Origin: an uncultured Allobosea sp.
GTDB taxonomy: Bacteria; Pseudomonadota; Alphaproteobacteria; Rhizobiales; Beijerinckiaceae
DNA: 64,000 nucleotides
Reading direction: 5' to 3'
NCBI RefSeq assembly: GCF_945956895.1
Contig: NZ_CAMFJF010000003.1
Coordinates: forward strand, 1 to 64,000
Shown here: piece by piece, positions 45,876 to 57,844 of the stretch
How positions within the stretch are numbered: the first letter of the stretch is position 1
How the letters are laid out: each line of letters begins with the position of its first letter
Program-made: the position numbers and the translations under genes
The notes under the pieces: generated by a model
What the model was told of the DNA's origin: nothing
Seen by the model: the letters and a program-made list of their open reading frames with translations, nothing else
Database searches by the model: none

Positions 45876-46214
45876 TCAGGCGGCACAATCGAAGCGGGCG
45901 ATGACCGCCCTCGCCTCGGCTGCAGCAAGGGCCAGCGCATCGAGCGCGGTTTCGCTCGCCTGCTGCTCCGGTCCGGCGAGACTCTCCTCGATGCGGTCGG
46001 CTGCCTCCGCGACCTGCCAGGCGCCGACAGCACGGGCTGCGCCCTTCAGCGTATGGGCCGCATCCATCCGCGCCTGCCGGTCGGCGCTGCCGTGGATCGC
46101 GCGCAGGTGGACGACGCATTGCTGGGCGAAGAGCGCGAGCAATTCGCGCAAAAGCTCGTGGTCGCCGGCGGTCTGGCGGGAGAGATAGGCGAAATCGATG
46201 ACCTTCTCAGTCAT
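45876..46214 (-). CDS. Stand-alone Hpt phosphotransfer protein
   Basis: 112 residues, an all-helical Hpt domain with the phospho-acceptor His54 in DAAHTLKGAARAVG. It has no kinase or receiver domain fused, so it would relay phosphate between a hybrid kinase and a receiver. It is divergent from the growth-pole-ring gene across 263 nt. Start 46214 has a weak AAGAG ribosome-binding site; the longer frame (to 46253) is less likely. Its partners are unknown. Confidence 0.87.
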   Translation of the reverse strand: MTEKVIDFAYLSRQTAGDHELLRELLALFAQQCVVHLRAIHGSADRQARMDAAHTLKGAARAVGAWQVAEAADRIEESLAGPEQQASETALDALALAAAEARAVIARFDCAA

Positions 46215-46291
46215 GTCGGGAACTCTTGGGCAATCGTCATCGAATGGCCGCATGGGCCAGCCTCATGCCCTTTCAGGAAGCGCCCTGATGG

Positions 46292-46477: not shown

Positions 46478-49400
46478 ATGAATCGGCCCAAGAAGCTCCA
46501 GGACCCCACTGAAGCTGCGATGTCGGCGATCGAAGAGGCGCTTCGCCTTGACCAGCCCAAGGACAGCACCGAGACGCCGGTCGAGACGGAGCCGCGGCTG
46601 CCCACGACCAGCGAGAACGACCTGAAGCTCGAGCTGCCGCGCGTCGAGCCGGCCCCGGCTTCACCCGCGTCAGCACCTGCCGCCCCCGCCCCTCAGCAGC
46701 CGGCGCCGCCACGCGCCGCGATCGCGCCTGATACCAGCCGCGTCGCCAACGACGATCGCCGGGATTCGAGCTCGCTGGTCCAGGCCTTCGCCGTGCGCCC
46801 GTCCAGCAAGCCCTATTGGTTCGCAGCGTTGGCCTCGCTCGCCTGGCTCGGAGGCGCCGCCTTCGTCCTGCTCGGCCGCTACGGTTCGTTCAGCAACGGC
46901 CTGCCTGAGCCCGTCGCCAGCTTCGGCATCGGCGAATGGACACTGCTCGCGCTCTCGATTGGCGCGCCGGTCGTATTCTTCTTCGTGCTGGCAGCACTCT
47001 ATCGCCGCACGCAGGAAATGCGCCTGATCTCGCGTGCCATGACCGAGGTCGCGCTGCGCCTCGCCGAGCCTGAGGTCGCCGGCGCCGATTCCGTGCTGTC
47101 GCTCAGCCAGACCATCCGCCGCGAGGTCGCCGCCATGGGCGACGGCATCGAGCGCGCCGTGGCGCGCGCCGGCGAGCTTGAAACCATCGTCCGCGGCGAG
47201 ATCTCGACGCTGGAGCGCGCCTATGCCGACAACGAAATCCGCCTACGCTCGCTGATCGACGAGCTCGTCACCCAGCGCGAGGCCGTGGTCGGCAATGCCG
47301 AGCGCGTCAAGCTCGCCATCAGCGGCGCCCATGACGGGCTCGCCAAGGACCTCGACAGCGCCAGCCGCACCATTGCGGAAGCCGTCTCGCAGGCCGGCGA
47401 CCGCGTCACCGGCTCGCTCGGCGCCAAGGGCGACCAGATCACCCAGGCCCTCGGCCGCGCCGGCGAGAAGATGATCGAGGAGATCAGCGGCCGCAGCCAC
47501 GACCTCGTCGAGCGCCTGCAGATCACCTCGGGCGAGGTGTCCGAGCGCCTGGCCGGCGCCAGCGGCAACCTGTCCGACATGCTCGACGGCCGCGCCAAGG
47601 AGATCGCGAGTTCGCTGGAGCGCACTGGCGCGGTCCTCACCGAGGGCCTGACCGCAGGCGCCCAGGATGTCACCCGCGCCATCAGCGAAACCGGCACGCA
47701 GGTCGCCGAGACGCTCACCGGCCGCGTCGAGACCGTCAACGAACTGCTGAAAAATACAGGCGAGACCCTCGCCCGCGACATCTCGGCGCGCGGCACGGAA
47801 GCGGCCGAGCGCTTCGAGGTCAGCAGCCGCAGCATGGTCGCGCTGATCGAGAGCCAGAGCGAGGCCTTGCAGGCGCGACTGGCGGAATCCGGCGAGGCGC
47901 TGCGCAACATCCTTTCCGACGAAGGCGAGAGCGTCACGACGCGCCTCGCCGAGGTCGGGCGCGGGGTCAACAGCCTGCTCGTCCGCCAGAACGAGGCCAT
48001 CGCCAACCGGCTCACCGAAGTCGGCGAGAGCGTCCATGGCCTGATCGGCACGCATGGCGACACGCTGGTCAGCCGCCTCAACGAGACCGCCCGCACCGTC
48101 GACGACGTGCTGCGCGAGCGTAGCGAAGCGATCATCCTGCGCGTCAGCGATGTCAGCCAGTCCCTCGGCGAATCCGTCGCGCAGCATGGCGACGCGCTCA
48201 CCGGCCGCATCTCCGACGTGGCGGGCCAGGTGAACGGCCTGTTCACCGATCAAGGCAGCAAGCTCGTCGACCGCCTGAACGAAACCGGCCAGACTGTCCA
48301 TACCCTGCTCGACCAGCAGGCAGAAAGACTTGTCGGCCGCGTCTCCAGCGCCGGCAGCGAACTCGCCGATCTGGTCGGCCAGCAGAGCGACGGCGTCGTC
48401 AATCGCGTTGCCGAAGCCGGCCGCAGCCTCGCCAGCCTGATGGGCGAGCACAGCGACGCCACCGTCGCGCGCGTCTCGAATGCTGGCGCCGATGTCGCCA
48501 AGCTGCTGTCGGAGCGCAGCGAGGCGCTGGTTTCCAGCGTCTCGGGCGCCGTCAACTCCGTCGAGACGCGCCTGCGCGACGAGAGCGAACTGCTCGTCAA
48601 CCGCCTGACCCAGGCCGGCCAGGACGTCAGCGCCGTCGTCGGCAACGAGAGCGAGCGCCTGATCACCGGTCTCTCCGAGACCGGCATGCGCGTCAGCGCC
48701 CTGCTCGAGGAGCAGGCCGGCGCGATGACCGTGAAGGTTTCGCAGGCCGGGCTCGAGATCAAGGACCTGCTCGGCAACGAGAGCCAGGCGCTGGCCAGCC
48801 GCGTCGCCGATGTCGGCCGCTCGGTGCACGGTATCCTGGCGGAGCGCTCGAACGCGCTGATTACTCGCCTCGCCGAGACCGGCGCCAGCATCGACCAGCA
48901 GCTCGACGAGCGCGGCGAGACGCTGGCCGCCCGCGTCACCGGCAGCATCGAAGCGGCGAGAAGCGCCCTCGAACAGCAGCAGACCGGCTTCCTCGCCAGC
49001 GTCAGTGAGACCGGCGAGAAGGTCGGCGCCCTGCTCGGCGAGCAGCGAGAGGCCATGGTGCGCGATCTCGTCAGCACCGGCCGTGAGGTCCACACCCTGC
49101 TCGGCGAGCAGAGCGAGGATCTGGCGCGCCGCATGACCGATGCGACCCGCACCCTCACCGAGACCATCAATGTCGATGGCCGCCATGTCGCCGACCGCGT
49201 CTCCGAGGCGACGCAAGGGTTGCGCGACACCTTCACCGTCCATGCCGAGGACGCCCGCACCATGCTCGCCGGCACCGGCCGCGAGATCGTCATGGCGCTG
49301 ACCCAGCAAGGCGGACGCGTCAACGAGGCACTCTCGGCCAACGCCGAGTCGATGCTGCGCTCGGTCGAGGGCCGCGCCCAGGCGCTGAACGAAGCGCTGG

Positions 49401-52400
49401 CGCTGCGCCACGACGCCTTGACCAAGCTCTTCGACGAGCGCGGGCATGAGATCGAGGCCGCGCTCGGCGGACGCCTCGCCGCGTTCTCGGCGCTGTTCGA
49501 TACGCAGGGCCGCGACGTCGAGAACGCGCTCGCCGCGCGTCTCGGCGCCTTCGAGGACCTCATCGTCAACCAGGGCGGCACGCTGACCGCCAAGATCTCC
49601 GGCGACGCGCAGCAGCTCACCGCCGCGCTCCATGCCGGCATCGCCCAGGTCGAGAAGCTGATCTCCGAGGACAGCGTCGTGCTGGCCGACAAGGCCGGCG
49701 CCCGCGCACTGGAAGCCGCCGAGATGCTCGCCAACCGCACCCGCGAGGCGGCCGACGCGATGGAGAGCCAGATCAAGCTGTTCGAGGACCGCTCGGGCGC
49801 CAAGAGCGCCGAGATCGCCGGCACGCTCGACAGCCTGATCGCGCGCATCGACGGCAGCCTCGGCTCGCGCGCCACCGCCCTCAACGAGGCGCTGGTCGAG
49901 CGCACGGTCGATATCGCCCGCGTGCTGGCCGAAGGCGGGCGCGACGTCACCCGCGCGCTCGCGGCCAAGGCCGACGAGATCGGCGAGGTCGTCACCTCGA
50001 AGAGCGAGTCGCTCACCCGCACGCTCAGCGACAAGGCTGACACGATCAATGCGACGCTGGGCGGCCGCGCCCTCCAGATCGCCGATACGCTCGACCAGAG
50101 CGTCGCGCGCTTCGAGGAGCGCGTCGTCGGCCGGCTCGACACCGTCTCGCACACGCTCGACACCCGCGGCGACGAGATCGCCGTCACGCTGCAGGGCCGT
50201 TCGGACGCCATCGCCTCGGCTCTCGCCGAGCGGGCGCAGGAGCTGCGCGCGCTGTTCGACGACCAGGGCGGCGGCATGGTCTCGGCGCTCGCCGGCCAGA
50301 GCGAGGCGATCGCGGCTGCGCTCACCGAGCGCGCGGAGCAGCTGCGCACCCTGTTCGACGATCGCGGGCTCGGCATCGTCGCCGCGCTCGGCCGTCGTGG
50401 CGACGCCATCTCGGGCGCGCTCGACCAGCGCGCCGAGCAATTGCGCGCGATCTTTGAGGGCCAGGGCGCCGGCATCGTCACCGCGCTGGAGCGCCAGGGC
50501 ACGGCGATCGCCAACTCGCTGGACGAGCGGACGGACGCCATGCGCGCCGCCTTCGACGCCAAGGGCCACGGGCTCGTCGAATTGCTCGGCCGCCAGGGCG
50601 ATACGATCACCCAGTCGCTCGACGAGCGCATGGAAGCGCTGCGCGCCGTGTTCGACGCCAAGGGCAGCGGCCTCGTCGCGGCTCTCGGCGAGCAGGGCGC
50701 GACCTTCACCCAGTCGGTCGACGAACGTGTCGAGGCTCTGCGCGCCGTGTTCGACGCCAGGAGCAACGGCGCCGTCGAAGCCCTGAACGAGCGCGGCGAA
50801 GCGCTTGCCAACGAGTTCGCCTCGGTCGGCGAGACGGTGGTGCGTGCGCTGGAAAGCCGCGGCAACGCCATCGTCGCCGGCCTGCGCGATCGTGGCGCGG
50901 CCATCGCCAACGCCGTCGAGGCCTCGTCCAACGCGCTCCGCGAGACGCTCGAATCCGGCTCGCGCCAGTCGATCGATGCGCTGGTCGGCACCAACGAGCA
51001 GCTGCGCGAGGAGCTCGGCGGCATGCTGGGGCGCCTCGGCGAGGCCAACAAGCTGATGCAGCAGATCGTCAACGGCGCGAACAAGAACCTCGCCGCCGTC
51101 GAGAACAGCCTGTCGACCCGCGTCGGCGAATTGCAGACCGTGATCGGAACGGTGATGGCGGAGGCCGGCTCGGCCTCGCAGCAGGTCACCTCGCAGATCG
51201 CCGAGCTGAAGAGCTTCTCGGAAGGCACGCTGCGCGAGACTGCGGCACTGATCGGCCAGCTCGACGACCGCGGCACCTCGCTGAACGACGTGACGCAGGC
51301 CAGCAGCGCGGCGCTCAACGCCGTCGCCGGCCGGCTGGAGCAGATCGAGGGCCGCGTCGGCAAGGCCCTCTCCGAGCGCCGCGAGGCGCTGGAGCAGCTG
51401 CACGGGCTGATCGCCAACCGGACCGACGATGTCGAGTCGATCACCCGTTCCTTCGCCTCGCTGATCGACGAGTCGCTCAGCACGGCCGAGGCACGCGCCC
51501 GCCAGATCGGCACGGTCCTGTCCGACTCGGCGGAATCGACCACGAACGCGATCGCCCAGCAGTTCGAGACGATCCGCTCGGCCACCGGCCAGGAGCGCGA
51601 GCGCACGGCGGAAGCCCTGCGCGCGGCCTATGCTCAGGTCTCGACCGAGATCAGTGGCGAGATCGCCAAGGTGACCGAGCGCTTCCAGAAGGCGGCGCAG
51701 GACATGCGCGGCATCACCGGCGACATCCAGCGCGAGCTGGAAGCAACCCGCGCCGAACTGAAGCGCGGCGTGCTCGAACTGCCGGCCGAGGCCCAGGAAT
51801 CGACCTCGGCCATGCGCCGGGTCGTCGCCGAGCAGATCAAGGCGCTGAACGATCTCACCGAGATCGTGACGCGCGCCGGCCGCCGTGGCGACGTCTCGCT
51901 GCCGATCGACCACGTCGCCAGCCGGCGCCCGGTCGCGGCTGCCGCCGCCCCTGCCCCGGCGGCTCCGGCCCCGGCCGCTCCCACCCGGCCTGCCCAGGCG
52001 TTCACGCCTGCGCCGCAGCCCGCGCCCGCCGCGGAGGAGCCGCTGCTGCGGCCGTCCATCGATGCGGCGAGCGAGCCCGCGCAGCCTGCCGCGCTGCGTC
52101 CCAACGTCCGCATCGAGACCGCGACCGCGCCGACTCGTCCCACCCCCGTGCAGGAGGCGCCACGCCGCCAGCCGGAGCCGGCTCAGCAGCAGCCGGCCAA
52201 GGCGGGCTGGCTCTCGGACCTGCTGACCCGCGCTTCGCGCGAGGACAAGCAGCCGGAGCCAAGCAAGCCGACGTCGCATTCGATCGAGAAGCTCGACTCG
52301 CTCTCCGTCGACATCGCGCGGATGATCGACCATGACGCGGCCGTGGAGTTGTGGGACCGCTACAAGCGCGGCGAGCGCAACGTCTTCACCCGCCGGCTCT

Positions 52401-52621
52401 ACACGCTGCAGGGCCAGCAGACCTTCGACGAGATGCGTCGCAAGTACCGCCGCGACGCCGAGTTCAAGGACACGGTCGACCGCTATATCGACGAGTTCGA
52501 GCGCCTGCTCGGCGAAGCCGCCAAGGACGACCGCGACTCGATGGTAGCCAAGACCTACCTGACCTCGGAAACCGGCAAGGTCTACACGATGCTGGCCCAT
52601 GCCAGCGGGCGCTTCGAGTAA
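46478..52621 (+). CDS. rgsE: Giant polar growth-pole-ring (GPR/RgsE-type) protein with apolipoprotein-like repeats
   Basis: 2047 residues. An acidic and Pro/Ala-rich N-terminus (1-108) is followed by two transmembrane helices (about 113-133 and 153-175). The body is helical and, from residue 286 to 1517, keeps an unbroken 22-residue (2 x 11) register. A second helical region runs to about 1810, then a Pro/Ala-rich linker (about 1815-1925) and a C-terminal domain (about 1935-2047; MIDHDAAVELWDRYKRGERN). Agrobacterium GPR (about 2115 residues, apolipoprotein-like) and Sinorhizobium RgsE share this architecture; they form a ring at the growing pole and are needed for polar growth. I infer the same role from architecture, not from alignment. 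A clear terminator follows. Confidence 0.85.
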   Translation: MNRPKKLQDPTEAAMSAIEEALRLDQPKDSTETPVETEPRLPTTSENDLKLELPRVEPAPASPASAPAAPAPQQPAPPRAAIAPDTSRVANDDRRDSSSLVQAFAVRPSSKPYWFAALASLAWLGGAAFVLLGRYGSFSNGLPEPVASFGIGEWTLLALSIGAPVVFFFVLAALYRRTQEMRLISRAMTEVALRLAEPEVAGADSVLSLSQTIRREVAAMGDGIERAVARAGELETIVRGEISTLERAYADNEIRLRSLIDELVTQREAVVGNAERVKLAISGAHDGLAKDLDSASRTIAEAVSQAGDRVTGSLGAKGDQITQALGRAGEKMIEEISGRSHDLVERLQITSGEVSERLAGASGNLSDMLDGRAKEIASSLERTGAVLTEGLTAGAQDVTRAISETGTQVAETLTGRVETVNELLKNTGETLARDISARGTEAAERFEVSSRSMVALIESQSEALQARLAESGEALRNILSDEGESVTTRLAEVGRGVNSLLVRQNEAIANRLTEVGESVHGLIGTHGDTLVSRLNETARTVDDVLRERSEAIILRVSDVSQSLGESVAQHGDALTGRISDVAGQVNGLFTDQGSKLVDRLNETGQTVHTLLDQQAERLVGRVSSAGSELADLVGQQSDGVVNRVAEAGRSLASLMGEHSDATVARVSNAGADVAKLLSERSEALVSSVSGAVNSVETRLRDESELLVNRLTQAGQDVSAVVGNESERLITGLSETGMRVSALLEEQAGAMTVKVSQAGLEIKDLLGNESQALASRVADVGRSVHGILAERSNALITRLAETGASIDQQLDERGETLAARVTGSIEAARSALEQQQTGFLASVSETGEKVGALLGEQREAMVRDLVSTGREVHTLLGEQSEDLARRMTDATRTLTETINVDGRHVADRVSEATQGLRDTFTVHAEDARTMLAGTGREIVMALTQQGGRVNEALSANAESMLRSVEGRAQALNEALALRHDALTKLFDERGHEIEAALGGRLAAFSALFDTQGRDVENALAARLGAFEDLIVNQGGTLTAKISGDAQQLTAALHAGIAQVEKLISEDSVVLADKAGARALEAAEMLANRTREAADAMESQIKLFEDRSGAKSAEIAGTLDSLIARIDGSLGSRATALNEALVERTVDIARVLAEGGRDVTRALAAKADEIGEVVTSKSESLTRTLSDKADTINATLGGRALQIADTLDQSVARFEERVVGRLDTVSHTLDTRGDEIAVTLQGRSDAIASALAERAQELRALFDDQGGGMVSALAGQSEAIAAALTERAEQLRTLFDDRGLGIVAALGRRGDAISGALDQRAEQLRAIFEGQGAGIVTALERQGTAIANSLDERTDAMRAAFDAKGHGLVELLGRQGDTITQSLDERMEALRAVFDAKGSGLVAALGEQGATFTQSVDERVEALRAVFDARSNGAVEALNERGEALANEFASVGETVVRALESRGNAIVAGLRDRGAAIANAVEASSNALRETLESGSRQSIDALVGTNEQLREELGGMLGRLGEANKLMQQIVNGANKNLAAVENSLSTRVGELQTVIGTVMAEAGSASQQVTSQIAELKSFSEGTLRETAALIGQLDDRGTSLNDVTQASSAALNAVAGRLEQIEGRVGKALSERREALEQLHGLIANRTDDVESITRSFASLIDESLSTAEARARQIGTVLSDSAESTTNAIAQQFETIRSATGQERERTAEALRAAYAQVSTEISGEIAKVTERFQKAAQDMRGITGDIQRELEATRAELKRGVLELPAEAQESTSAMRRVVAEQIKALNDLTEIVTRAGRRGDVSLPIDHVASRRPVAAAAAPAPAAPAPAAPTRPAQAFTPAPQPAPAAEEPLLRPSIDAASEPAQPAALRPNVRIETATAPTRPTPVQEAPRRQPEPAQQQPAKAGWLSDLLTRASREDKQPEPSKPTSHSIEKLDSLSVDIARMIDHDAAVELWDRYKRGERNVFTRRLYTLQGQQTFDEMRRKYRRDAEFKDTVDRYIDEFERLLGEAAKDDRDSMVAKTYLTSETGKVYTMLAHASGRFE
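47333..51028 (+). repeat. 56 tandem 66-bp coding units (22-residue apolipoprotein-like repeat)
   Basis: I split the translation by hand from residue 286. All 56 consecutive 22-mers (to residue 1517) keep phase with no insertion or deletion, with a loose pattern of acidic residue, hydrophobic pair, Arg, Leu, Gly/Ala, then hydrophobic pairs (for example ESVTTRLAEVGRGVNSLL). Between about 50206 and 50800 a 99-bp superperiod dominates; for example CTGCGCGCCGTGTTCGACGC recurs at 50639 and 50738. Confidence 0.85.
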
Positions 52622-52649
52622 GCGCGCAGCTCCAGCAACCGAAATGCGC

Positions 52650-52682
52650 AAGGCCGCCCTGACGGGCGGCCTTTCCATTTTG
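52650..52682 (+). terminator. Rho-independent terminator after the growth-pole-ring gene
   Basis: Perfect 10-bp stem AAGGCCGCCC (52650-52659) with GGGCGGCCTT (52664-52673) and a 4-nt TGAC loop, followed by TCCATTTT. Confidence 0.88.
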
Positions 52683-52742
52683 GGCTGTTCCGCAAAGGCC
52701 TGCCGCGCGCCTGGGACGCACAGACCTTCAATGGAAACGCGG

Positions 52743-52838
52743 GTCATCCCGGCCGGAGCGATGCGAAGAGCCGGGATCCATGCCTGAACCTTGATCGGAA
52801 GCGTTCCGGAATGGATCCCGGGTCAAGCCCGGGATGAC
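52743..52838. repeat. Palindromic intergenic repeat, family A copy 4
   Basis: GTCATCCCGG (52743-52752) and CCGGGATGAC (52829-52838), with the inner GCCGGGATCCATGCC / GGAATGGATCCCGGGTC dyad. The flanks GGAAACGC on the left and GCGTGTTTCC on the right extend the palindrome outward. Confidence 0.9.
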
Positions 52839-52866: not shown

Positions 52867-53580
52867 TTAAGCCGCCGCGCGGAAACGCGCCTCGCCTCGG
52901 TTCACGAAGCAGGTCTTGTCGAACAGGGCGAGGTCCAGCGGATTGGGCAGCCGGACATCCACGATCTCGGGGAATGGCCGGCTCGAGCCCTCATAGGAGC
53001 GGTCGATCTGCGAGAGGAAGACGAGGATCAGGCCCCTCTCCCGCGCGAATGCCTTCAGCATGCTCACTTGAAGCGCCAGCTCCGGCGTATCACGGCGCTG
53101 GTCGAGCAATTGCAGGTAATCGATCACCGCCACCGTGCCGCGCGGCGCTTCCGCCAGTCTCGCAACGATGTAGTCGGCGCTGATCGCATCGGAGCAGTCG
53201 CAGTCGAACAGGCCGGCAAATTCACCCGGCTCGATCTTGATCGCGCGCAACCGGGAGAGCACATCGGCCGGCGTGTATTCGAGCGTGAGGAACAGGCCGC
53301 GACGCCCGGACCGCATCGCTTCCGCGAGCAAAGCGAGGCTCGCCAGCGTCTTGCCCTGCCTCGGCCGCCCCGCCATCAGGACGAGATCGCCCGGCTCCAG
53401 CAGGGGCCAGAGCGCGCGAACCGAAGTCATTCCCGGCTGCTTCGCCGCAAGCAAGCTCCAGCTGCGATAGCCCTCCTCGCCCGCGATGCGGTCGAGCGCG
53501 GTGTGGAGCGGTATGCGCTCGGCCCGGCTCAGGAGCCTCGCCTTGCGCTTCAATTGATGGATCGGGGCCGACAAATTCAT
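52867..53580 (-). CDS. Orphan DnaB-C-like RecA-fold ATPase
   Basis: 237 residues. It resembles the C-terminal ATPase domain of replicative helicase DnaB alone: Walker A GRPRQGKT (71-78), LFLTLEYTPADVLSRL with catalytic Glu101, Walker B VAVIDYLQLLD (Asp154) and the sensor-like VFLSQIDR. The DnaB N-terminal domain is replaced by about 55 basic residues. It may be a non-replicative ATPase or a DNA-processing factor; I cannot say. ATG 53580 follows AGGAGG. No replication genes are adjacent. Confidence 0.75.
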   Translation of the reverse strand: MNLSAPIHQLKRKARLLSRAERIPLHTALDRIAGEEGYRSWSLLAAKQPGMTSVRALWPLLEPGDLVLMAGRPRQGKTLASLALLAEAMRSGRRGLFLTLEYTPADVLSRLRAIKIEPGEFAGLFDCDCSDAISADYIVARLAEAPRGTVAVIDYLQLLDQRRDTPELALQVSMLKAFARERGLILVFLSQIDRSYEGSSRPFPEIVDVRLPNPLDLALFDKTCFVNRGEARFRAAA

Positions 53581-53797: not shown

Positions 53798-54403
53798 TCA
53801 GCGCGCCCAGCGCACGATCTCGACCAGAACCTGCGACAATGCCTTGTCGAGCGCCTGGGCCGCGCCCGGTCCGTCGACCGCGCCGGCCGGCACGCGCGCC
53901 GCGAAGAGCCGCGCCCGCTGGATCTGCCCGGTCCTGTCACCGACGATGCGGGCGGTGATCTCGACCACCGCCATGCCCGTCGCGGCATCGATGTTGAAGC
54001 TGCGGATATTGGTGTTGAGCTGGACATCGGGCGAGATGCGCTGGCCCGGCCCCGAGACCGAGCCGACGCGGCCGGCATTCTCGAAGGTCTGGATCAGGCG
54101 CGCCTGCACCAGGGCGGGAACCCGGTCCGCCCATTGCGCCCCACCGACGAAGGAGAGCGCGCCGCTCGAATCCCTGACGATGACGCGATCGGAGTCGAGC
54201 GCCTGCACCGCCGTCGGCTCGGCCACGACCATGATCGCCCGCGAGCCTCCGACCTTGCCGAAACCACCGGGAGCCGAAAGGTCGAAGGTGGTCGGCGTCG
54301 CCCCGCCGCCGCAGCCTGCGAGCAGTGCAGCCGCAGCCACGACCAGCGCCGGAAGGAGGCGATGAGCCCGGCGGGCCGCAGGAAGCTGAACCTCGATCGT
54401 CAT
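53798..54403 (-). CDS. ABC-type transport auxiliary lipoprotein (PqiC/DUF330-like) of the Mla operon
   Basis: 201 residues. The signal peptide ends in lipobox LLAGC, so it is an outer- or inner-membrane lipoprotein. The mature part fits the ABC_trans_aux (LptE/PqiC-like) family: AVQALDSDRVIVRDSSG, QWADRVPALVQARLIQTFENA. It is the last gene of the mlaEFD-lipoprotein operon, only 4 nt after mlaD, and probably assists lipid transfer across the periplasm. ATG 54403 is supported by the lipoprotein signal. Confidence 0.88.
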   Translation of the reverse strand: MTIEVQLPAARRAHRLLPALVVAAAALLAGCGGGATPTTFDLSAPGGFGKVGGSRAIMVVAEPTAVQALDSDRVIVRDSSGALSFVGGAQWADRVPALVQARLIQTFENAGRVGSVSGPGQRISPDVQLNTNIRSFNIDAATGMAVVEITARIVGDRTGQIQRARLFAARVPAGAVDGPGAAQALDKALSQVLVEIVRWAR

Positions 54404-54407
54404 GGGG

Positions 54408-55550
54408 CTAGCGGGATCCGTTGTACTGGGGGAGCGGCGGTTTGCCGCCGAATATGAACTGCTGCGGGTTGCGTTCGAAATTCCGCAAGGTGCGGTTGAG
54501 TTCCGTGAGCGTCCGTTTGCCGTCCGAGGCCAGCGTCTCGACATCGCGCAGACCCGGCCCGGTGAAGCGGCTGATGCCGGCGGTGATCTCAGCGGTGCGC
54601 TTGTCGAGATTGTCGGCGAGCGTGCGGATCGACTTGGCGGCATCCGCGACCTCCTGGAAGGCGCTGCGGCCATCGGGCCCCGACCCGGATTCAAGGAAGC
54701 CCTTCGCCGCCTTGAGCACGCCCTCGACCTGATCGGCCGCGCGGTCGAGCTTGGCCGAGAGCGAGGCCGCGTCCTTGACGACCTTGGCGACATCGGCGCT
54801 GGAGCCGCCGAGCGCGCCAGTGAACTTGTCGACATTATCGACGATGCTGGCGATCCGGTTGCGATCGACCGAGCGCACCACCGCCGTCAGTTCCTCGCTG
54901 AGCGATTGCAGCTTCTGCGACAGCGGCTGGATCGTCTCGGCGATGTTGCCGAAGCCGGCCATCAGCTTGTCGAGCCCGTCGGCATTGTTGCCGAGCGCCT
55001 GAGAGAACTTCTCGACATTGCGGACGGTGTTGTTGATCGGCGTGGCGTTCTGCTTGATCAGCCCGTCGAGCGAGGTCAGCATGCCATCGGCCTTCTGAGC
55101 GACGTTGCGCACGGTCTCGATGATGTCCTGCAGCTCCGAACGCTCGGCGATGATCGTCGGCATCGGCTCGCCGGGCTTGGCCTTCAGGACCGGCGCGGAG
55201 GGATCGCCGCCGATGAGCTGCAACGCGACCACGCCGGCCAGCCCTTGCGCCTCGATGCGCGCACGCGTGTCCTCGCGCAGAGGCGTGGTGTTGGCGACCT
55301 GGATCACGGCATAGATGCGTCGCGGATCGTCCGGCTGGAGCTCGATATTGGTGACCTCGCCGACGCGCAGGCCGTTGAAGAGCACGCTCGATCCGCGCCC
55401 GAGCCCGGTCACTGTGCCAGTGAAGATGACGCGGATGCTCTCCTTGCGCCCGGCCCCGCCACTGTTGAACCAGTAGACGAAGCCGAAAGCCGCCGCGAGG
55501 ACCGCGAGCGTGAACAGGCCGACGAGTGCGTAATTGGCGCGCGATTCCAT
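54408..55550 (-). CDS. mlaD: MlaD-family MCE-domain lipid-binding protein
   Basis: 380 residues. One N-terminal membrane anchor (YALVGLFTLAVLAAAFGFVYW) precedes an MCE domain (about 38-116; IRVIFTGTVTGLGRGSSVLFNGLRVGEV). The rest is a long helical region of about 240 residues, longer than E. coli MlaD and similar to other alphaproteobacterial versions. It binds phospholipid on the periplasmic side of the MlaEF complex. Start 55550 lies 3 nt after the ATPase stop. Confidence 0.92.
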   Translation of the reverse strand: MESRANYALVGLFTLAVLAAAFGFVYWFNSGGAGRKESIRVIFTGTVTGLGRGSSVLFNGLRVGEVTNIELQPDDPRRIYAVIQVANTTPLREDTRARIEAQGLAGVVALQLIGGDPSAPVLKAKPGEPMPTIIAERSELQDIIETVRNVAQKADGMLTSLDGLIKQNATPINNTVRNVEKFSQALGNNADGLDKLMAGFGNIAETIQPLSQKLQSLSEELTAVVRSVDRNRIASIVDNVDKFTGALGGSSADVAKVVKDAASLSAKLDRAADQVEGVLKAAKGFLESGSGPDGRSAFQEVADAAKSIRTLADNLDKRTAEITAGISRFTGPGLRDVETLASDGKRTLTELNRTLRNFERNPQQFIFGGKPPLPQYNGSR

Positions 55551-55553
55551 CGT

Positions 55554-56384
55554 CTAGAGGCTCTGTCCCTGCTCTCCCGCCGGCAGCCTGGCCATGGCGC
55601 GCTCCCCGCCGAAATAGGCCTTCAACCATTGATGGTCGGACGCCAGCATCGTCGCCAGCGGCCCAACCGCGATCACCTTCTTGTCCGCCAGGGCGGCGAT
55701 TCGGTCGCAGGCATGATACAGGCTGTCGAGGTCGTGGGTTACCATGAAGACGGTGAGACCCAGAGTCTGCTTCAAGGTCATGATCAGGTCGTCGAATTCG
55801 GCGGCGCCGATCGGGTCCAGCCCCGATGTCGGCTCGTCCAGGAAGACGATCTCGGGATCGAGCGCGAGTGCCCGGGCCAAAGCCGCGCGCTTGATCATGC
55901 CGCCCGAGAGTTCGGAAGGCGCCTTGTCGGCGGCATCGCGCGGCAGGCCGACGAGATCGAGCTTCACCATCGCCAGTTCGTCGAGCAGATCGGGCGAGAG
56001 CTGAAGGTACTCGCGCATCGGCACCTGGATGTTCTGCTTGACCGAGAGCGCCGAGAACAGCGCGCCCTGCTGGAACATCACGCCGAAGCGCCGCTCGAGC
56101 ACGCGGCGCTGTTGCAAGTTGAGGTCGTCGACATCCTCCCCGAAGACCTCGATGGTCCCGCGCGCCTTGCGGACGAGGCCGAGGATGGTGCGGGTCAGCA
56201 CCGACTTGCCCTGGCCAGAGCCGCCGACGAAGCCGAGGATCTCGCCGCGCAACACGTCGAGATTGAGCCCGTCCATGATCACCTTGTCACCGAAGGCAAC
56301 CTTGAGATCGCGGACGCGGATCACCGCTTCAGGCGCGCCAGGAGCCTGCGTCGGATGGGGGTGGGAAGCATCTTGCCGCGCCAT
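55554..56384 (-). CDS. mlaF: MlaF-type ABC ATP-binding protein
   Basis: 276 residues. The Walker A motif is GGSGQGKS (54-61), the Q-loop is MFQQGALFSALSV, the signature is SELSGGMIKRAALARAL, the Walker B is IVFLDEPTSGLDP and the switch His is in VTHDLDSLY. FQQGALFSALSV is typical of MlaF/Ttg2A. It powers the retrograde or anterograde phospholipid shuttle. It is separated from mlaE by 2 nt. Confidence 0.94.
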   Translation of the reverse strand: MARQDASHPHPTQAPGAPEAVIRVRDLKVAFGDKVIMDGLNLDVLRGEILGFVGGSGQGKSVLTRTILGLVRKARGTIEVFGEDVDDLNLQQRRVLERRFGVMFQQGALFSALSVKQNIQVPMREYLQLSPDLLDELAMVKLDLVGLPRDAADKAPSELSGGMIKRAALARALALDPEIVFLDEPTSGLDPIGAAEFDDLIMTLKQTLGLTVFMVTHDLDSLYHACDRIAALADKKVIAVGPLATMLASDHQWLKAYFGGERAMARLPAGEQGQSL

Positions 56385-56386
56385 CG

Positions 56387-57532
56387 TCAGAACTCGATCG
56401 AAGCGAAGAACATGGCGAAGAGCCCGTCGACGACGATGACCATGAAGATCGCCTTCACCACCGAGGCCGTGACCTGACGGCCGAGCGATTCCGCCGAGCC
56501 CTTGACCGCGAACCCTTCGATCGAAGCGATCAGGCCGATGACGAAGGCCATGAACGGCGCCTTGATCAGGCCGACCGCGAAATGCTTCCAGGTGATGACC
56601 GATTGCAAGCGGGCGAGGAAGGTGTCGACGCCGATGCCGCCATAGAGCCAGGAGACCAGCCCGGCGCCGACCAGGCCGGCCATCGCGGAGATGAAGGTCA
56701 GGATCGGCAGCGAGATGATCAGCGCCAGGATGCGCGGCACGACCAGAACCTCGATCGGGTCCAGCCCCATGACGCGCAAGGCATCGATCTCCTCGCGCAT
56801 CTTCATCGAGCCGATCTCGGCGGTGAAGGCCGAGCCCGAGCGGCCGGCGATCATGATCGAGGTCAGCAGCACCGCGAGTTCGCGCAGGATCAGGATGCCG
56901 GTGAGGTTCACGACAAAGGCGGAAGCGCCGAACTGCTGGAGCTGGAAGATGCCCTGCTGGGCGACGATGCAGCCGACGAGGAACGAGATCAGCATGATGA
57001 TCGGCGCGCCGTTGAAGGCGATCAGCTCGACCTGGTTGACCAGCGACGGCCCCCGGAACTTGCGCGGACCGAGGACGACGCTGGCCGAGCCGACCACGAC
57101 CTCGCCAAGAAACATGGCGCCGCCGACCATGTCGCGCCCGAAGCGCACGACGCCCTCGCCGATATCGACGAGGATATCGACGACGCCGACATGCCGGTGC
57201 AACTTCGGCGGATCCTCGTCATGAACCTGGACCTCAGCGAGCAGGATGCCGTGCTCGGGCTTGCTGCTGACGAGCTCGAGCGCGACGCCCTTTCTCTCCT
57301 CGCGTGCCTTCAGGCGGTTGAGGACATAGGCACCAAGCGTGTCGAGCCTGGTCACGTCCGAAAGGTCGATCCGGGCTCCCGTCTCCGCAGGCAGGCGCTC
57401 GGTGATCTCGCCGATCAGTTCTTCGATGCGGGGGGCGCGGTCGGCGCTCCAGGAGCCCGAAAGCGCCACCGCCAGCCTGCCCGCATCATCGCGGAGGATC
57501 ACCTGCGGTTCGGCGGTATCGAGGCTCGCCAT
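56387..57532 (-). CDS. mlaE: MlaE-family permease with N-terminal STAS domain
   Basis: 381 residues. Residues about 10-95 form a STAS domain (IDLSDVTRLDTLGAYVLNRL), followed by about five to six membrane helices of the MlaE family (MLISFLVGCIVAQQGIFQLQQFGA, IAGRSGSAFTAEIGSMKMREEIDAL, the conserved coupling motif). E. coli instead supplies the STAS function as separate MlaB; here it is fused. ATG 57532 precedes the STAS domain. A longer frame to 57775 is unlikely. First gene of the operon. Confidence 0.9.
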   Translation of the reverse strand: MASLDTAEPQVILRDDAGRLAVALSGSWSADRAPRIEELIGEITERLPAETGARIDLSDVTRLDTLGAYVLNRLKAREERKGVALELVSSKPEHGILLAEVQVHDEDPPKLHRHVGVVDILVDIGEGVVRFGRDMVGGAMFLGEVVVGSASVVLGPRKFRGPSLVNQVELIAFNGAPIIMLISFLVGCIVAQQGIFQLQQFGASAFVVNLTGILILRELAVLLTSIMIAGRSGSAFTAEIGSMKMREEIDALRVMGLDPIEVLVVPRILALIISLPILTFISAMAGLVGAGLVSWLYGGIGVDTFLARLQSVITWKHFAVGLIKAPFMAFVIGLIASIEGFAVKGSAESLGRQVTASVVKAIFMVIVVDGLFAMFFASIEF

Positions 57533-57844
57533 GTTGCCGTGAGGTCCTTGTCCCCTGGCCGGAACGGCCGTGAGGCGCCGCGCGGCCGCGCGGTGCCGGC
57601 CACACCAACCTCCACCCCCTGCCCTGTATTGCCGCGCCGTGCGCGCTTGGCAAGCATCGAGCCGACCGAGGCCCTCGGCCGGGCAGGGAAGCCTTCCGAG
57701 AACGCGGGAACCGCGGCTTTGCCGGCTGTTTGTTCCAATTCGGGGCGAAGGCAGCAATTCCTTAAGAAATCGCAAGGCAGGCTCGGAAACGTAACGTCAC
57801 GACCGCCCTCCTGATTCGGCCGGTCCTTCGAAGGCAGATCCGTC
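57533..57844. other. 312-nt divergent region between mlaE and the CheZ-like gene
   Basis: No gene is supported here; frames that cross it are extensions or shadows. It is GC-rich except for TTCCTTAAGAAATCGCAAG around 57758-57777, which could hold a promoter. I see no strong dyad. Promoters for both the mla operon and the plus-strand gene must lie here. Confidence 0.5.

Follow-up and report, generated by a model that had tools for sequence, protein, structure and literature searches.

Unipolar growth in the Rhizobiales involves proteins of the GPR/RgsE type, which are important or essential for it and for which the working model leans on a likeness to apolipoproteins. According to the published descriptions (PMC8262873, PMC7327166), homologues occur in every Rhizobiales family. 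In S. meliloti Rm2011 a mutant with rgsE deleted is viable (PMC7327166). GPR (Atu1348, Agrobacterium tumefaciens) has 2115 aa and RgsE (SMc00190, Sinorhizobium meliloti) 2089 aa; GPR uses two N-terminal transmembrane (TM) domains as its membrane anchor, and both proteins have a long helical middle matching the apolipoprotein family PF01442, with a Pro-rich region ahead of the C terminus.

Long arrays of 11-residue units are known from other proteins as well. Apolipoproteins A1, A4 and E (PF01442) have an 11/22-residue amphipathic period, with repeat units punctuated by Pro, and Scy acts in polar growth. By the account in PMC9858780, Streptomyces Scy is a rod of more than 1000 residues made almost wholly of 11-residue units (hendecads), and in Scy and FilP heptads were gradually expanded by hendecads. 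Human perilipin 4 is described as carrying 29 33-mers without indels (PMC5889406). Given the long precedents of Scy and perilipin 4, an initial annotation of the present locus was only partly right in calling its geometry little described.

A single-copy gene resembling GPR and RgsE

The window, by which we mean the whole 64,000-nt stretch of DNA analysed here, carries an open frame of 2047 aa at 46478..52621 on the + strand, as are all its parts given below. Hydropathy predicts two N-terminal TM helices, likewise as in GPR, at residues 115-133 (46820..46876; model helix 111-135) and 156-174 (46943..46999; model helix 151-196). They are followed by a non-hendecad helix at residues 177-266 (47006..47275), with a period of ~3.58 in the sliding spectrum and many invariant alignment columns, and then by a hendecad tract at residues 267-1515 (47276..51022). 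Beyond the tract lie a mixed helical region with a spectral period of ~3.56-3.66 (residues 1516-1800, 51023..51877), a Pro/Ala-rich linker evident from the sequence (residues ~1813-1925, 51914..52252) and a conserved C-terminal helical domain (residues 1938-2047, 52289..52618), seen in an alignment and in a model with a mean pLDDT of 78. This last domain matches no Pfam or NCBIfam family at E 0.1, and a Foldseek comparison of its fold with the PDB returned nothing usable (best E 0.47).

The size, the predicted TM pair, the long helical, presumably cytoplasmic part and the PF01442 matches all agree with the initial assignment to the GPR/RgsE type. So does copy number, counted through the C-terminal domain: all 31 genomes of one set, that of the window among them, have exactly one, and it is present in 146 of 150 genomes from the order and in 119 of 121 from one family, one of which has a second, partial match. 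A scan of genome contigs found at least 80 loci; Agrobacterium and Sinorhizobium were not among the matches listed, and GPR and RgsE were compared through their published descriptions. The best explanation of these sequence features is that the gene is a putative Bosea member of the GPR/RgsE-type family of polar-growth scaffolds.

Other assignments were rejected. An antisense ORF at 47243-52747 has no Pfam family and is open because TTA, CTA and TCA account for only 3 of 2048 sense codons in this 70.6% GC gene. Membership of the anti-phage ZorA family was discarded at 26.6 bits against an NCBIfam cut-off of 250, over residues 1366-1624 only, and a literature search on ZorA tail geometry gave one paper, which judging by its listing concerns another subject. 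The SpiroCoCo score likewise fell under its cut-off.

An unbroken hendecad tract

Re-cutting the translation confirmed 56 consecutive 22-residue units from residue 286 without an indel, as initially annotated. Columns 3, 7, 14 and 18 hold hydrophobic residues, and columns 11 and 22 Gly, Ser or Ala. The expected periodicity was borne out at 11/3 residues (hydrophobicity power 150; maximum of 500 shuffles, 7.7) and at 11 residues (45; shuffle maximum 9.5), both far above controls, and failed at 22 residues, where a power of 0.6 amounts to no signal. No 88-residue window from 265 to 1540 has a hydrophobicity phase outside the range of -96 to -141 degrees; beyond 1540 the phase is lost. An 11-state Viterbi model, whose emissions were taken from the window protein and which for that protein sets boundaries only, returned a single run of 1249 residues, or 113.5 hendecads.

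The indel-free register thus stands, but its quantum is 11 residues rather than 22, and the tract has 113.5 hendecads rather than 112. Local self-identity places a 22-residue super-period mainly at residues ~465-959 (47870..49354) and a 33-residue one at ~1158-1454 (49949..50839; self-identity up to 0.53 at 33), the latter with 99-bp tandem DNA repeats at 50204-50781. Because hydrophobicity has no power at 22 residues, a 33-residue super-period occupies part of the tract and the offsets among relatives include odd multiples of 11 besides even ones, we reject a strict 22-residue unit.

Composition follows the same register. LIVMF residues occupy 93% and 98% of core positions d and h, and Gly, Ala or Ser 79% of position a; on a helical wheel, the Leu-rich h sits between d and the small a. 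Dimers are disfavoured, by a rule quoted in PMC9858780, where a bulky residue points towards the axis. Pro, Trp, Cys and Tyr are absent from all 1249 residues, whereas Gly, unusual for a stable helix, accounts for 122. Among 17 aligned same-genus proteins, pairwise identity is highest at a, d and h (0.81-0.83), also high at the flanking positions k, e and g (0.74-0.78), and 0.48-0.63 at b, c, f, i and j. An 11/3 period, a core at a, d and h and a lack of prolines are the features of a hendecad coiled coil.

Length varies while register is kept

Tract length is not fixed. In the window protein and 16 same-genus orthologues it ranges from 1062 to 1436 aa (96.5-130.5 hendecads), the shortest tract, in L043, corresponding to ~160 nm, and the closely related L033, though 94% identical to the window protein, has a tract differing by 22 residues. 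Across 150 proteins, hendecad residues range from 0 to 2380, with no hendecad run in some relatives (L060, L158 and L164). Heptads are numerous among the hendecads of named Mesorhizobium, Phyllobacterium and Brucella relatives, in contrast to Bosea, which has almost none.

We compared the distance between anchors on either side of the tract, an alignment-free test controlled by two flanking distances, which span all eleven remainders. In 26 of 28 distinct Bosea-type proteins the anchor distances are equal modulo 11, and the other two are short by exactly 4 residues; these two losses are separate, and every other net change in the 28 tracts is a multiple of 11. The linkers of the same proteins carry indels of 1-17 residues.

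A similar pattern appears within the tracts of 150 distinct complete proteins, where we scored phase jumps between neighbouring runs, each 22 residues or longer, leaving out runs parted by unassigned stretches. Heptads replacing hendecads account for 193 of 198 jumps (+4, 147; +8, 27; +1, 18; +5, 1); the remaining five, all +7, do not fit such substitution, and jumps of 2, 3, 6, 9 or 10 do not occur. Counting only context-distinct jumps leaves 107 (+4, 81; +8, 18; +7, 5; +1, 2; +5, 1). The jump prior alters the count and not the pattern (113, 78 and 21 jumps under three priors in 93 proteins, with 72, 51 and 14 of +4), and simulated jumps of all ten sizes were recovered about equally, with zero false jumps. 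Changes in length are almost all by steps that leave the core seam intact, and the strong constraint on phase suggested in the initial annotation is supported by anchor distances and phase jumps alike.

A candidate scaffold and its alternatives

We favour, with a probability of roughly 0.68, a hendecad coiled coil that is locked in phase but plastic in length and would act as a scaffold at the growth pole, not as a fixed ruler. The tract would form a nearly straight, parallel, homo-oligomeric coiled coil ~187 nm long and would serve as an extended scaffold at the pole. One end would be anchored in the inner membrane, and from the other a flexible linker would present the C-terminal domain. Selection would hold the register, since a slip would disrupt the core seam along the whole rod, while length could change freely, in whole steps of 11 residues (1.65 nm) or by a hendecad-to-heptad swap. 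It looks like a rod in which registration matters and exact length does not. The frequent Gly, the bulky h, the five +7 jumps, the relatives that have no hendecad run and the helix break in the weak structural model described below weigh against this reading.

An unlikely alternative is that the tract lies along the inner membrane or some lipid surface as a giant amphipathic 3-11 helix, in the style of perilipin 4 or the apolipoproteins, its constant phase keeping the apolar face on the membrane. The 11-residue period is the same, and the perilipin 4 array is, like the Bosea tract, long and free of indels (PMC5889406). The PF01442 score is 220 bits against a gathering cut-off of 90, as a sum of repeated matches of which the best single-site one reaches 52 bits. 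This similarity persists, however, after position-preserving shuffles: a real segment of 616 aa scored 123.9 bits and four column shuffles of it 131.5, 88.0, 142.1 and 116.7, with no match to one full shuffle, and apoA-IV is likewise matched by a column shuffle. An 11-residue amphipathic period plus composition accounts for the similarity, which does not speak for common descent; we reject apolipoprotein homology as unproven. The tract also lacks prolines between units, unlike apolipoproteins.

Gene neighbourhood lends a membrane-lying helix some support. A convergent, mpcEFDA-like cluster of MlaE, MlaF, MlaD and PqiC-like lipoprotein genes (53798..57775, - strand; Pfam) lies downstream; 22 of 40 other genomes likewise have MlaE and MlaF no more than 9 kb downstream. 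Upstream, a divergent gene for an Hpt-domain protein (45876..46253, - strand; PF01627, E 4e-10) recurs in 16 of 20 other genomes. The neighbourhood is widely conserved, but a special link to lipid transport is weakened because the Hpt neighbour, an upstream control, is equally conserved. Several properties of the tract argue against the membrane surface: a narrow Leu/Ile/Val seam, conserved flanks and a net charge of -66 over 1249 residues, which we take as a poor fit to an acidic membrane. For the perilipin 4 repeats, in contrast, PMC5889406 describes low hydrophobicity and a net charge of +1 in each 33-mer. Moreover, a loss or a gain of 4 residues would each turn an apolar face by ~33 degrees, yet losses are far commoner than gains, which are the +7 jumps: 147 against five among all 198 jumps, and 81 against five among the 107 that are context-distinct.

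It is quite improbable that the long helix doubles back on itself to give compact bundles of apolipoprotein-like modules, the arrangement put forward for GPR. Folding was argued to be necessary since GPR foci are 50 nm wide (PMC8262873), and our AlphaFold2 model of residues 100-560, itself weak (pLDDT 70, pTM 0.23), breaks the helix at 350-354. The published argument, as stated, takes 600 nm for 1,700 residues, whereas 0.15 nm per residue gives 255 nm, and GFP in the GPR deletion constructs marks the N terminus only; a GFP fusion to the C terminus is described as interfering in A. tumefaciens (PMC8262873). Both Pro and phase breaks are absent across the 1249 residues.

Slightly less probable again is that whole-unit unequal recombination alone kept the phase, without selection on register. 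The 11-residue steps and 99-bp repeats fit repeat recombination, but it leaves unexplained the two separate 4-residue losses, the predominance of heptad substitutions and the absence of the other jump sizes, and linkers in the same proteins carry indels of many sizes. Very improbable, too, is a molecular ruler that sets a ~200-nm ring by a fixed number of units: 1249 x 0.15 = 187 nm comes close, as did the ~185 nm of the initial annotation, but variation in unit number among orthologues contradicts it and leaves the match unsupported.

Implications for polar growth

The phase-locked rod is, on our best reading, most like Streptomyces Scy, by convergence. Scy and FilP share with the Bosea tract very long hendecad rods and are described as DivIVA-like and cytoskeletal, with an Ala-rich core, whereas the Bosea core has Gly/Ser/Ala at a and Leu/Ile/Val at d and h; the passages on Scy make no mention of a TM hairpin, which is predicted here (PMC9858780). 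The N-terminal DivIVA motif of Scy and FilP is not found in residues 1-285 of the Bosea protein, which match neither DivIVA nor any other Pfam family at E 0.1. We tentatively suggest, at a little under even odds, that two unrelated polar-growing lineages, one with the Rhizobiales GPR/RgsE type and the other with Streptomyces Scy, each arrived at hendecad rods of more than 1000 residues by expanding an older coiled coil rich in heptads, the alphaproteobacterial rod being phase-locked and length-plastic in 1.65-nm steps.

The published deletions, as described, take out ~20 aa in some cases and whole domains in others (263 and 346 aa, going by the limits stated). They were picked from apoA-IV similarity and PCOILS, and effects of length, sequence and register are therefore mixed. 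The register rule sorts tract deletions into those that keep register (11, 22 or a 4-residue loss) and those that break it (2, 3, 5 or 6), and the family offers natural arrays for coiled-coil work in which lengths and slips can be read like mutagenesis. The shuffle control strips PF01442 similarity of its value as evidence of homology. If our suggestion is true, the lipid-sorting model of GPR, built on apolipoproteins, would be left without support from sequence, and scaffolding of the pole would need a continuous, torsion-neutral rod of no set length.

Hendecad array and register

The gpr-type ORF (46478-52621, + strand) encodes a 2047-aa protein whose translation divides from residue 286, as the initial annotation had claimed, into 56 units of 22 residues without an indel. 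At a period of 11/3 residues the hydrophobicity power is 150, whereas none of 500 shuffles exceeded 7.7. The unbroken phase therefore stands, but there is no hydrophobicity power at 22, and the true unit is the hendecad (11 residues, positions a-k). Phase is constant from approximately residue 265 to 1540, and an 11-state Viterbi model, with emissions taken from the window protein itself, returned a single run at residues 267-1515 (the tract), which was abolished in 5/5 shuffles of residues 286-1517. Within the tract, position a (a-d-h notation) is 79% Gly/Ala/Ser (Gly in 47 of 112), whereas Leu/Ile/Val/Met/Phe make up 93% of position d and 98% of position h. Pro, Trp, Cys and Tyr are absent, and the net charge is -66. 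An antisense ORF of 1834 aa (47243-52747, - strand) is open because TTA, CTA and TCA codons are almost absent; part of its translation resembles the sense repeat (E 7e-5).

Among relatives, tract length varies and register does not. Eighteen same-genus genomes yielded 16 complete genes, the other two being cut at contig ends, and all 17 proteins (window included) carry one unbroken main tract of 1062-1436 aa. When these proteins were aligned with MAFFT, net indels inside the tract were multiples of 11 in all cases, with three pairs of equal gains and losses cancelling inside it (13 and 13 twice, 3 and 3 once); indels in the linker ranged from 1 to 17 aa. An alignment-free test drew on 28 complete Bosea-type proteins, all distinct: these 17 and 11 named loci (two labelled only Boseaceae/Rhizobiales). 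In each we measured how far apart two conserved flanking motifs lie. This distance is equal modulo 11 in 26/28, and is 4 residues short in the remaining loci, L061 and L069, which lack them at different places. Two control distances in the identical 28 proteins take all eleven remainders. A second hendecad run of 108 residues lies beyond the main tract in L036 (1841-1948), L069 (1799-1906) and L072 (1838-1945).

Phase jumps across the family

To 80 named loci (11 truncated ORFs dropped), 28 relatives and the window we added 60 further loci of the order Rhizobiales (3 truncated dropped), keeping 150 distinct complete proteins with 0 to 2380 hendecad residues each (median 938). Shifts of register were scored only where two runs of 22 residues or more adjoin with no unassigned stretch between them. 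This gave 198 phase jumps: 147 of +4, 27 of +8, 18 of +1, five of +7 and one of +5, with none of size 2, 3, 6, 9 or 10. A hendecad minus four residues is a heptad, and therefore +4, +8, +1 and +5 correspond to one, two, three and four heptads. Common descent lies behind many jumps; clustering by sequence context left 107 (+4, 81; +8, 18; +7, 5; +1, 2; +5, 1). The count depends on the prior (113, 78 or 21 jumps in 93 of the proteins), with +4 the commonest at each. Simulated uniform jumps were recovered about equally at all sizes, and jump-free simulations gave zero false jumps. Steps of 40 residues (three hendecads and one heptad) occur within the array in L136, L156 and L200, from other families, and steps of 80 residues in L106.

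Apolipoprotein similarity and the nature of the helix

The full-length protein matches the apolipoprotein family PF01442 at 220 bits, and the lipid-organising model in PMC8262873 leans partly on this family and on apoA-IV similarity. We permuted residues only among equivalent positions of the hendecad, so that period and composition are preserved but the order of residues is lost. Four such column shuffles, the first of a real 616-aa segment and the other three of all 1232 residues, scored 131.5, 88.0, 142.1 and 116.7 bits (3/4 above the 90-bit cut-off); the real 616 aa scored 123.9, and one full shuffle gave no PF01442 match. Likewise, apoA-IV in the PDB was matched by a column shuffle at E 9e-6 and by the full-length real protein at 4e-7. 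PF01442 signals below the cut-off occurred in 7/14 control genomes, and above it in 0/14. Because column shuffles match as the real sequence does, we reject the similarity as evidence of common ancestry; the tract may still bind lipid.

Conservation is highest at positions a, d and h; k, e and g come next, and the outer positions are freer. Together with the narrowness of the seam, the acidic charge and a rule by which slips run one way, this pattern favours a coiled coil over a lipid helix, as judged from sequence. The hydrophobic moment points to 24 degrees, between d (0) and h (33); the small residue sits at a, whereas the Leu-rich h is central on the helical wheel. According to PMC9858780, hendecads require either a small residue in the core or a higher oligomer; the paper also describes Scy, a rod of >1000 residues that is nearly all hendecads. 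A structural model of residues 100-560 is largely helix, but weak, with a break at 350-354.

The main text of PMC8262873 reports two 21-aa coiled coils found with PCOILS and does not contain the words "repeat", "hendecad" or "amphipathic". Citing its reference 13, it holds that folding is needed, since 1,700 helical residues would span 600 nm against foci of 50 nm. At 0.15 nm per residue, 1,700 residues come to 255 nm, and GFP is at the N terminus in the deletion constructs it describes; small foci therefore do not rule out a rod.

Gene neighbourhood

Genes for MlaE, MlaF, MlaD and a PqiC-like lipoprotein (53798-57775, - strand) lie convergent and 3′ of the gpr-type gene, resembling mpcEFDA of Brucella (PMC12436622). 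MlaE and MlaF are downstream in 19/19 Bosea-type loci. Of the 61 other named loci, 49 have 6.5 kb of sequence or more, and in 41 of these both genes are again downstream. In other genera both fall within 9 kb downstream in 22/40 genomes (20 convergent; two, L246 and L249, co-directional), including 3 of the 6 genomes from outside the order. An intervening RepA/DnaB-C-like ATPase gene (52867-53580, - strand) is present in only 6/19 Bosea-type loci. Divergent from the gpr-type gene is that of a single-domain Hpt protein (45876-46253, - strand), a possible regulatory partner. In a same-genome control of 20 other genomes, Hpt was kept upstream in 16 and MlaE downstream in 14 (upstream instead in one, L285), with VWA in 8 and USP in 2. 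Because the whole block is conserved, a link to lipid transport is suggestive only; among the literature matches listed, we found no paper covering both the gpr-type gene and lipid-transport genes.

Family identity and origin of the array

In the window protein two TM segments are predicted, and a Pro-rich linker precedes a conserved C-terminal domain; this architecture matches GPR and RgsE as described in PMC8262873 and PMC7327166. The C-terminal domain (52289-52618, + strand) is conserved in alignment A1 of this region, and its model has a mean pLDDT of 78. It matched no family in Pfam or NCBIfam, and its model gave no usable fold match in the PDB; we regard it as a candidate new domain family. 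It occurs once per genome in 31/31 genomes (the window's own included), in 146/150 genomes of the order, in 119/121 of one family, taken to be Rhizobiaceae (one genome having a second, partial match), and in 50/115 of a class sample that counts the window's genome and one other of its family. Among the best 80 of at least 594 relatives, the nearest named loci are from Bosea, then Microvirga, Pseudolabrys and others. L118 is recorded as Bosea sp. 117, yet its C-terminal domain is just 66% identical and its tract 808 residues; the record name may be wrong, and we counted it among non-Bosea loci.

The initial annotation considered the geometry not widely described. The GPR/RgsE-type family and long hendecad rods are already known, but arrays that run unbroken for up to 1645 residues (L051), together with the register rule, appear to be new in this family: judged by their listing, the open-licence literature matches listed included no report of hendecads in GPR/RgsE. 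The 20 relatives examined from outside the order retain the C-terminal domain and, at the N terminus, one or two TM segments. Their spacers mostly have a period of ~3.57, resembling the window protein's own pre-tract helix, and a few have stretches at 3.60-3.68. We infer that the older state was probably a mixed heptad/hendecad coil, and that the pure hendecad array would be a later expansion.
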